Source of the DNA: Cristatella mucedo
Taxonomy: Eukaryota; Bryozoa; Phylactolaemata; Cristatellidae
Length of the DNA: 64,000 bases
NCBI GenBank assembly: GCA_009760855.2
Contig: WPIO01000047.1
Span: forward strand, 2,868,001-2,932,000
Direction of reading: 5' to 3'
The notes under the pieces: generated by a model
Told to the model about the DNA's origin: nothing
Databases searched by the model: none
The model's input: the letters and a program-made list of their open reading frames with translations, nothing else
In this document: positions 1 through 40,138 of the stretch, piece after piece
How positions within the stretch are numbered: position 1 is the first letter of the stretch
Layout of the letters: the number at the start of each line of letters is the position of its first letter
Made by a program: the position numbers and the translations under genes

Positions 1-2740
1 CTGAACGGAGATCGGCCAATATCGCCGAGGCTACTGAGCGCCAGCTCGCAGCTGAATAGCTACGCGAGTCCAAGCCGAGCCCTGCTCAACACCGTACGCG
101 ATGGGCTGTACTTGGGAGCATGGGTTGCTTCGAGCAATTTCGGAAACCAATATATCCAGGTAGTTGATCGCCTCGTTGAAACGTCGGCACAAGGCCGAAT
201 GGCCCAAACTTCGGACTCTTTTTATTATTATTACCATGTTAATACTAACAATCTAGAACTCTGATTATCCATATAATTTAAAGTGGGTGAAATGGGATTT
301 TGCTCTGCTAGTGCACTATTATTTATGTCATTATTATTATTACTGCTAGCTTATGTGCTTCCGGACCGGACCTTTAATTCACTTTGGTTTTAGCTCAAGC
401 GCCCAGCAATTGCCTCTGTGGCCTGGCTGTATCTTAGATCACGCTTTTCTCAAAATTTAAATTATTCCCGCTCTTAACTTGTCATCATTTGGGGCACAGT
501 TGTGACTCATTTGGTGAGCTTTGAAGCCTTCTCAGACCTAGCAGCTCTACCTCAGGGCTTTGGAGTGATATTTCTTCCAGTGCACTGCCTGTATAGCAGA
601 ATGCCTACATTGCCCTAACGCTATGCACTGATACATTGCAGATTGACTTTGGTGTGCCCACGAACATCCGCGCTGTGGCCACCCAGGGCCGGCAGGACGC
701 TACCGGTTGGGTTACGGCATACGCACTTCGCTACACGATAGACGGCTCTTCAACGCTATCCACCTATAACGGAGTCACGGTAAGTTTACTTGGAGTTTTA
801 AAGCAGCAAAAATGAGTAAATTTTTACCTTTATCAATCACTAGCATTAAGGATATCTTTTTGAGCTATTTAGTCAGCTAGAGTAAACTTATTAAATTTTA
901 TTAATAACTATGTTAGCGCCAAAATAATTAGCTACAGGTTTAATGCAATGTAATTCATTTGTATAGTGCCCAAGAGAACTTAATCTCTATTTATGCGCTT
1001 TACATATGCCGCCGGGCTCGAGCCCGCGACCTCAGGCAGCCAGACCTTGATCGGGGCGAGCACCTTAACCGCTGCACCATACAAGCTACATTCAAAAAAC
1101 TTTAAAAAGGATCAAGTTGTAACTTACTAGTTATGGGCAAACCCAGTGTGATTCAGAAATTGGGAAGGCTGACGCTCAAAATTGGCTCTGCCAGCATATC
1201 TCTTCTTGGATCACTCGAAATATAGGTGTCATGTTCCCAAGTGACCTCTCGTTAGACGACCACATCAGCTCCACAGTGAAATCTGCCTACTTTCAGCTAC
1301 ATAATATTGCTAAAATTCAGGCTTGTTTAGATAAGGATACTATGTCTAAGTTTGTCCATGCATTCGTGACATCCCGTTATGACTTCTGTACCTCACTGCT
1401 TGCTGGCCTACCGGCATGTGCTATCAGACGATTACAGCTGGTGCAAAACTCAGCATCTAGGCTTGTCTGTCGTGAGCGTCACAGTTGCCACATCACACCA
1501 CTTCTCACCGACCTGCACTGGCTACCAGTCAAGCAACGGATCGACTTCAAGGTTTCGTCGCTCACTTTTAGGTCACTTCATTCTTTGGCTCCAGCCTATC
1601 TCTCAGATCTACTCACCCACCAGTCCAAGCATCGTACCAACCACTTTCGGAACCCAACAGTCTACCAATACCTCGAACAAACCTCAAATCCTTTGGAGAC
1701 CGTGCATTTAGTTCGTATGCTCCCAAAGCGTGGAACTCCCTCCCGACTTGCGTCAGAATATACCCTGACTTGACCACATTTAAAAAAGAACTTAGAAGTA
1801 CACCTATAGGGCAGCATTTAGTGGGTCCCTCTGATTCGTCTTTCATGTGCTTATGCGTTTGACACTGTGCGTGCTGCCACTAACCACATGTGCAAGCTGA
1901 CTCTGTGCATGTCACCCCTAACCATGTTATTCATGCTGTTTATCAAGCATGATATTACTCACCATTCAATTGCGTTTCCATTTGCAGCAAATGTAAAGCG
2001 GCCAGAAAAAGATTGAGTCCTCTGAGGGCGCTTTGTCAAGTGCATTATTAACATTATTAATATTAAAGCCTTTTCAAGCGTCGACGATAAGGCACCCTTA
2101 CTTCCGCTCAGGTATTGAATTCTTAAGACTTGTTAAGACAATTTAAATTTTCTCTTTGAGAAACTCACACAATGCACATTAGCTAAATCTATTCAATGGA
2201 CATGACATTTGTTTCTGTCGTAAGTTTTTCATTATAAAAAGGTATCTAATCAATGTGTCAGAACCATTCACTGGAAATCTTCCATTATCAGTATGAATTG
2301 CTCGGTAGTTAATTTTTATTTCCTTTGGCTACAAATTTTGAGATTCATCTTGCTAGATAACATGGATAGTTTTTCTGTTTTGAAAAATATGCAATAAAGA
2401 GCTTCATAACTTTATTCGCACTCTTTAGTGAAAAGTTACTGCTAGCACGGCCATTCTTAAATCTAAACATTATACATTTGCATCAACAGATAGCGATGCA
2501 GAATTCCAAACTAAGTCATCAAGAAACCTGGCTGTTAGTCGTGGATCATGTGCTAACAAATATGAGTGTTTGGCATACTTACAATTTGTTGTACTTTTCA
2601 GAGGTTCAGTGGAAACTTTGATCAAAACACTGTGGTGAAGAATTTTTTACCGACTCCCTTAACGGCTGTCAAACTACAGTTCTACGTTTTATCTTATGCA
2701 ACGCAGGTGGCGATGAGAGTTGAAGTATACGGCTGCCGAG
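1..2740 (+). CDS. Exons 1-3: F5/8 type C (discoidin) domain
   Basis: Exons 1-159, 642-779 and 2602-2740 give about 146 residues (numbered 1-146 from the window start). Exon 1 reads [20 protein letters not shown] and later GAWVAS and QYIQ; exon 2 continues [17 protein letters not shown], then [13 protein letters not shown]; exon 3 has [13 protein letters not shown] and ends VEVYGCRG. These are the core motifs of the discoidin fold: an ASS near the start, the IDFG strand, an ATQGR loop, a WVT-Y-L strand and a terminal GC. Junctions are phase 0, 0 and 1. Such domains bind phospholipids, collagens or glycans; the ligand here is unknown. Only the first residues of the domain (its N-terminal cysteine) fall outside the window. 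Intron 779-2602 carries a SINE2 and a LINE A fragment. Confidence 0.92.

Positions 2741-40138: not shown

Follow-up and report, generated by a model that had tools for sequence, protein, structure and literature searches.

A predicted C-type lectin receptor gene of the bryozoan Cristatella mucedo with F5/8C, FAMeT and WSC modules between two blocks of CTLDs

The mannose receptor family (MRC1, MRC2, PLA2R, DEC-205) is characterized by a cysteine-rich (ricin-type) domain, followed by one fibronectin type II domain (FN2) and 8 or 10 C-type lectin-like domains (CTLDs). A WSC domain and CTLDs occur together in one protein in the Polycystin-1 family, and a CTLD that carries both EPN and WND has a calcium-dependent mannose-type site. 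According to the available text of PMC4229073, the mannose-receptor genes with 8 CTLDs have 30 exons with conserved phases, an extra N-terminal cysteine pair is present only in CTLDs 2, 3, 4, 6, and 8 of the family, and phi-x-N-x-x-Y is the endocytosis motif of MRC1; a FENTLY motif is given in the accessible part of PMC5297682. Two further described systems combine many CTLDs with an F5/8C (FA58C) domain. As described in the available part of PMC514892, Fugu DEC-205-FUSE, a GenScan prediction without cDNA, contains five CTLDs, LCCL and FA58C, and a second block of 10 (or 7) CTLDs. In the Manila clam, the set RpMR1-13, as presented in the accessible text of PMC12321717, has 1–14 CLECT domains, 2–60 exons, and FA58C among its domains, and one member, RpMR7, has a mass of 320.37 kDa, a pI of 5.19, and a gene of 62.6 kb.

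The stretch of C. mucedo DNA analyzed here (the window) encompasses 64,000 nucleotides (C419:2868001-2932000). A receptor gene was modeled from the window and 50 kb of DNA 5' of it, taken from the same assembly (572 Mb, 688 contigs). The gene spans 71.8 kb on the plus strand (C419:2836383-2908138) and consists of 58 exons with 8676 nt, which encode 2891 amino acids with a computed mass of 317.1 kDa and a pI of 5.11. While 32 of the 58 exons touch the window, the other 26 were placed upstream on the same contig. Without the signal-peptide exon, 57 exons with matching phases form a sequence of 8607 nt with a single, terminal stop codon (exon number 17 follows this 57-exon model). The part within the window comprises 32 exons and 5079 nt and is in frame up to the stop codon at 40136-40138; the initial annotation had counted 35 exons and 5310 nt, likewise joined in frame. 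One intron is of the GC-AG type, and alternative sites existed for the acceptor of CTLD 13 (CTTTTTAG/CTTCACTG). Because the splice sites were picked by eye to match phases, in-frame joining alone is weak proof, and the model rests mainly on domain matches. The reading frame, the domain order, and the motifs are present in the genomic DNA, from which a single transcript for the whole gene is probable.

The model predicts a signal peptide, five CTLDs, an F5/8C domain interrupted by a Methyltransf_FA (FAMeT) domain, two further F5/8C domains, a WSC domain, eight CTLDs, FN2, one more CTLD, a transmembrane helix (TM), and a tail, with F5/8C and WSC sitting between two CTLD blocks. Pfam scans of the plus strand of the window (three frames, stops read as X) matched single exons of F5/8C, WSC, Lectin_C, and fn2 over about 1-39.8 kb. 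In a Pfam scan of the spliced model, run on five typed pieces, five Lectin_C stretches were obtained upstream (3.4e-86) and nine in the window (1.4e-164), together with Methyltransf_FA (5.6e-24), three F5/8C domains (1.5e-21, 5.6e-16, and 8.2e-21), WSC (6e-13), and fn2 (4.2e-16). The domain matches of the window part are far above chance.

In window coordinates, all on the plus strand, the third F5/8C domain (Pfam F5_F8_type_C, 8.2e-21) occupies 1..2740 (exons 1-159, 642-779, and 2602-2740) and the WSC domain, which has an internal phase-0 intron, 2833..4719 (exons 2833-2957 and 4557-4719). The CTLDs were located by the model and Pfam. CTLD 6 of 14 extends over 6196..7487 (exons 6196-6375, 6795-6952, and 7374-7487, the last of which also encodes the first Cys-Pro of CTLD 7), CTLD 7 over 8171..9681 (exons 8171-8286, 8515-8681, and 9473-9681, the last also starting CTLD 8), and CTLD 8 over 9473..15220 (exons 9473-9681, 9813-9946, 14446-14489, and 15053-15220). 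These are followed by CTLD 9 at 16818..21701 (exons 16818-16987, 18639-18745, 18847-18947, and 21585-21701) and CTLD 10 at 21585..22408 (exons 21585-21701, 21809-21934, 22036-22205, and 22315-22408), both also marked by EPN and WND, by CTLD 11 at 25394..25995 (exons 25394-25647 and 25821-25995), and by CTLD 12 at 27267..31821 (exons 27267-27545 and 31648-31821). CTLD 13 lies at 32223..35318 (exons 32223-32364, 33558-33757, and 35085-35318), its last exon also encoding FN2 at 35198..35317 (Pfam fn2 1.8e-15; genome search 8.8e-15), and CTLD 14 at 37165..38529 (exons 37165-37329, 37955-38046, and 38364-38529). The terminal exon (39840..40138; model and motif) encodes the TM helix and, C-terminal to it, about 62 tail residues that include FNNALY. 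The order F5/8C-WSC-CTLD(8)-FN2-CTLD-TM, ending with the stop codon at 40138, which the initial annotation had proposed for 1-40138, was thus recovered by Pfam and the spliced model.

The first exon of the third F5/8C domain begins 20 nt 5' of the window (window position -19; acceptor CTCTTTGCAG/GC TGC, phase 1), and the F5/8C N-terminus seen in the window is an artefact of the window edge. Truncated sequences can produce false differences in N-terminal architecture, and the apparent difference here arose because the sequence is truncated at that edge. A receptor beginning with F5/8C was rejected, since the window cuts the gene and the additional exons were modeled upstream. F5/8C and WSC had also been read as an N-terminal replacement of the ricin-type module, a view that was abandoned as five CTLDs, the FAMeT-split F5/8C, and a second F5/8C precede them.

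In the search of the assembly, 33 CTLD exon matches were found, seven of them on C419 and two of these upstream of the window, and a profile built from the nine CTLDs of the window gave strong matches to CTLD exons between 26.2 and 9.2 kb 5' of it. Pfam identified Methyltransf_FA and two more F5/8C domains in the DNA just 5' of the window and further Lectin_C exons beyond, and matches in the next 10 kb further upstream were limited to a reverse transcriptase and a mitochondrial carrier. A candidate signal-peptide exon (MVGFATTRFAAWVAVLSAFSLS), located 31.6 kb 5' of the window, joins in phase, and no other candidate turned up in 13.8 kb. The donor of this exon scored 10.4, and the median over the donors of the gene itself was 7.7; a control scan of the reverse complement also returned one candidate, which had a weaker donor (7.0). 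Two adjacent genes or promoters, with a five-CTLD gene upstream and a second one starting at or within the F5/8C block, would be in line with a weak signal-like start (donor 5.7) in the intron after exon 22, and the one-transcript model was derived from genomic DNA alone, just as the Fugu DEC-205-FUSE prediction lacks cDNA support in the available text of PMC514892. However, the other six of the seven scanned introns contain no signal-like start, exon 17 comes 1122 nt after CTLD 5 in phase 1 across an intron without such a start, and no exon with TM and stop was seen by inspection between CTLD 5 and F5/8C, so that we regard this arrangement as very unlikely. A hydrophobic open stretch at 41683-41853 (upstream coordinates) lies outside all modeled exons. 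The one gene assumed in the initial annotation is supported by the 57 exons in matching phases and the domain matches, and the explanation that we favor and consider likely as a whole, including an endocytic role, is a single gene for a very large type I membrane protein.

Counted by hand on the model, 18 of the 22 module borders have a phase-1 intron, compared to 32 of all 57 introns. The border between CTLDs 6 and 7 has a phase-0 intron, those between CTLDs 7 and 8 and between CTLD 13 and FN2 have none, and at the border of CTLDs 9 and 10 the phase-1 intron is situated just beyond the first Cys. FAMeT was placed between the first exon and the remainder of the first F5/8C domain, and both flanking introns are in phase 1. 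The first 44 amino acids of this split domain align in register with the N-termini of the other two F5/8C domains (22.3 and 20.8 bits, compared with a maximum of 20.0 bits among 200 shuffled controls), and FAMeT therefore is located inside the first F5/8C. If the full model holds, the gene displays clear module shuffling, including one module inside another, and a lectin receptor of very large size is encoded by a single gene, with phase-1 introns at most of its module borders.

The receptor resembles the mannose receptor family in being a type I protein with a CTLD array, one FN2, and a phi-x-N-x-x-Y tail, and it has TM and tail in the last exon in common with MRC1 as far as that gene is described in the text available. 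By architecture it is not a member of this family, from which it differs in the N-terminal module, the place of FN2, and the numbers of CTLDs and exons. Its modeled N-terminus is a signal peptide followed by a CTLD instead of the cysteine-rich domain; Pfam found no ricin-type domain in four upstream pieces (the fifth was scanned with the CTLD profile only), and CysR_MRC2_N had no match in a genome-wide search run without a positive control. FN2 lies between CTLDs 13 and 14 and not before the first CTLD, in agreement with the initial annotation, which had pointed out an order unlike that of the mannose receptors. There are 14 Lectin_C stretches (5 + 9) as opposed to 8 or 10 CTLDs and 58 modeled exons as opposed to 30, and the three F5/8C domains, FAMeT, and WSC are absent from the family. 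Thirteen of the 14 CTLDs contain six Cys and one contains seven, which deviates from the cysteine-pair pattern of the family.

A true mannose-receptor-family gene could have been rebuilt by exon shuffling, with FN2-CTLD-TM-tail kept and the rest replaced or multiplied. FN2-CTLD14 indeed aligns through to FN2-CTLD1 of PLA2R with 76.9 bits for the stretch, and the tail motif and the TM-tail exon are as in MRC1, as far as described. The scores of CTLD 14 alone are mixed, however: 34.8-39.8 bits against CTLD 1 or 2 of PLA2R and MRC1, and 45.6 bits against an MRC2 CTLD (9qy1), but about 60 bits against CD209-like B and CD23. For two DEC-205 fragments, the whole-chain scores were 62.5 and 62.4 bits. 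The idea that FN2-CTLD14 is demonstrably copied from the FN2-CTLD1 unit of the mannose receptors was rejected, as CTLD 14 alone has no special likeness to CTLD 1. In a tree of 27 CTLDs (14 of the receptor and 13 of the family; long branches), the numbered CTLDs of the family grouped as expected, whereas those of the receptor were scattered and no starred branch joined them to a numbered family CTLD. Approximately unbiased (AU) tests were marginal for the receptor CTLDs as one group (p 0.0408), for CTLD 14 with mannose receptor CTLD 1 (p 0.0506), and for CTLD 6 with mannose receptor CTLD 1 (p 0.0498). Best blastp matches were to another CTLD of the same receptor for 11 of the 14 and to a mannose-receptor CTLD for three. 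A rebuilt family gene thus appears unlikely to us, and the CTLD phylogeny suggested in the initial annotation did not separate the two origins proposed there.

The question whether the same order is already known from many animals yielded two incomplete parallels, both compared by the available text descriptions. The predicted Fugu gene DEC-205-FUSE (PMC514892) likewise has five N-terminal CTLDs, F5/8C in mid-protein, and many CTLDs after it, but it has LCCL where the bryozoan receptor has FAMeT and WSC, contains a single FA58C rather than three, measures about 2000 residues, and has 10 (or 7) C-terminal CTLDs, and FN2 is unmentioned in the part available. In the five spliced pieces of the bryozoan receptor, Pfam gave no LCCL match at a threshold of E 0.01. 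RpMR7 of the clam set (PMC12321717) is similar to the receptor in mass (320.37 vs 317.1 kDa), pI (5.19 vs 5.11), and gene length (62.6 vs 71.8 kb), and this size match suggests that it may be an ortholog; the 14 CLECT domains, 60 exons, and FA58C are not tied to RpMR7 in the available text, which makes the likeness circumstantial, and WSC, FN2, and FAMeT are unlisted among the domains there. WSC plus CTLD is shared with the Polycystin-1 family, whereas PLAT, REJ, and GPS had no Pfam match in the spliced pieces. The exact domain order was not found described in the literature searched, in which the string F5/8 is unsearchable as text. The complete receptor is an uncommon mosaic and a variant of the known multi-CTLD receptors. 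It might, as a tentative and in our judgment rather improbable proposal, belong to a distinct old lineage apart from the mannose receptors, which would be characterized by two CTLD blocks and an F5/8C-based linker in molluscs and fish and by lineage-specific inserts. LCCL would then be the insert in fish, and FAMeT nested in F5/8C, plus WSC, the inserts here, and the FN2-CTLD-TM-tail end would reflect either shared ancestry with the mannose receptors or convergence. If the full model holds, it offers a sequence anchor for testing whether DEC-205-FUSE marks such an old receptor lineage.

EPN and WND occur together in four of the 14 CTLDs (4, 5, 9, and 10; assigned by script, except CTLD 5, which was assigned by eye as the script gave an earlier NPP). 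Among the others, CTLD 1 has EPN without WND, CTLD 12 EPS with WND, and CTLD 13 QPD without WND. The tail sequence FNNALY fits phi-x-N-x-x-Y, a motif match of six residues that can arise by chance. Because of the EPN/WND CTLDs and this tail motif, the most likely role of the receptor is endocytic, in pattern recognition or scavenging. CTLDs 4, 5, 9, and 10 would be calcium-dependent binding sites for sugars of the mannose/GlcNAc/fucose type, F5/8C, FAMeT, WSC, and FN2 may contribute glycan or matrix contacts, and FNNALY would recruit clathrin adaptors, leading to internalization of the ligand. Matrix and adhesion proteins commonly carry F5/8C, WSC, and FN2, and a receptor for adhesion or gamete/matrix recognition instead of an endocytic immune receptor would have such a composition, but the tail motif is of the endocytic receptor type and we consider this alternative doubtful.

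The exon-by-exon genome search, whose counts are lower bounds, found at least 33 Lectin_C, 27 F5/8C, 8 WSC, and 5 FN2 exon matches, and all four were matched together on a single contig, C419. Another gene, located at C656:1930001-1940000 in minus-strand orientation, has CTLD-CTLD-FN2-CTLD-FN2 matches, and FN2 beside a CTLD therefore is not unique to the receptor gene. Long identical stretches are common to both FN2 domains of this gene and suggest a recent module duplication. Near the FN2 matches at C155 and C321, no CTLD was found within the 30 kb examined at each. Methyltransf_FA was detected at one other place, C332:8066401-8067600, where FAMeT is encoded in a single open frame (167 amino acids), in contrast to the three-exon copy of the receptor gene. 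The search missed this exon-split copy, so that a lack of matches elsewhere carries little weight.

Rfam and ARAGORN searches returned nothing within the window. An intron of the receptor gene harbors a reverse transcriptase at 19264-19632 (RVT_1 8.8e-15), and other LINE-like ORFs were recognized by eye at 1123-1770 and 11728-12288; one reverse-transcriptase-like ORF had no match in a PDB search. Degenerate repeats at 58452-60834, for example nine copies of a 39-nt unit with at least 60% identity and a spacing of 132 to 359 nt, are reminiscent of an old array of satellite or minisatellite type. The next gene downstream is represented by an exon of a WD40-repeat protein at 62469-62669 on the plus strand (best Pfam match 2e-6), the wording of whose repeat is suggestive of UTP15.
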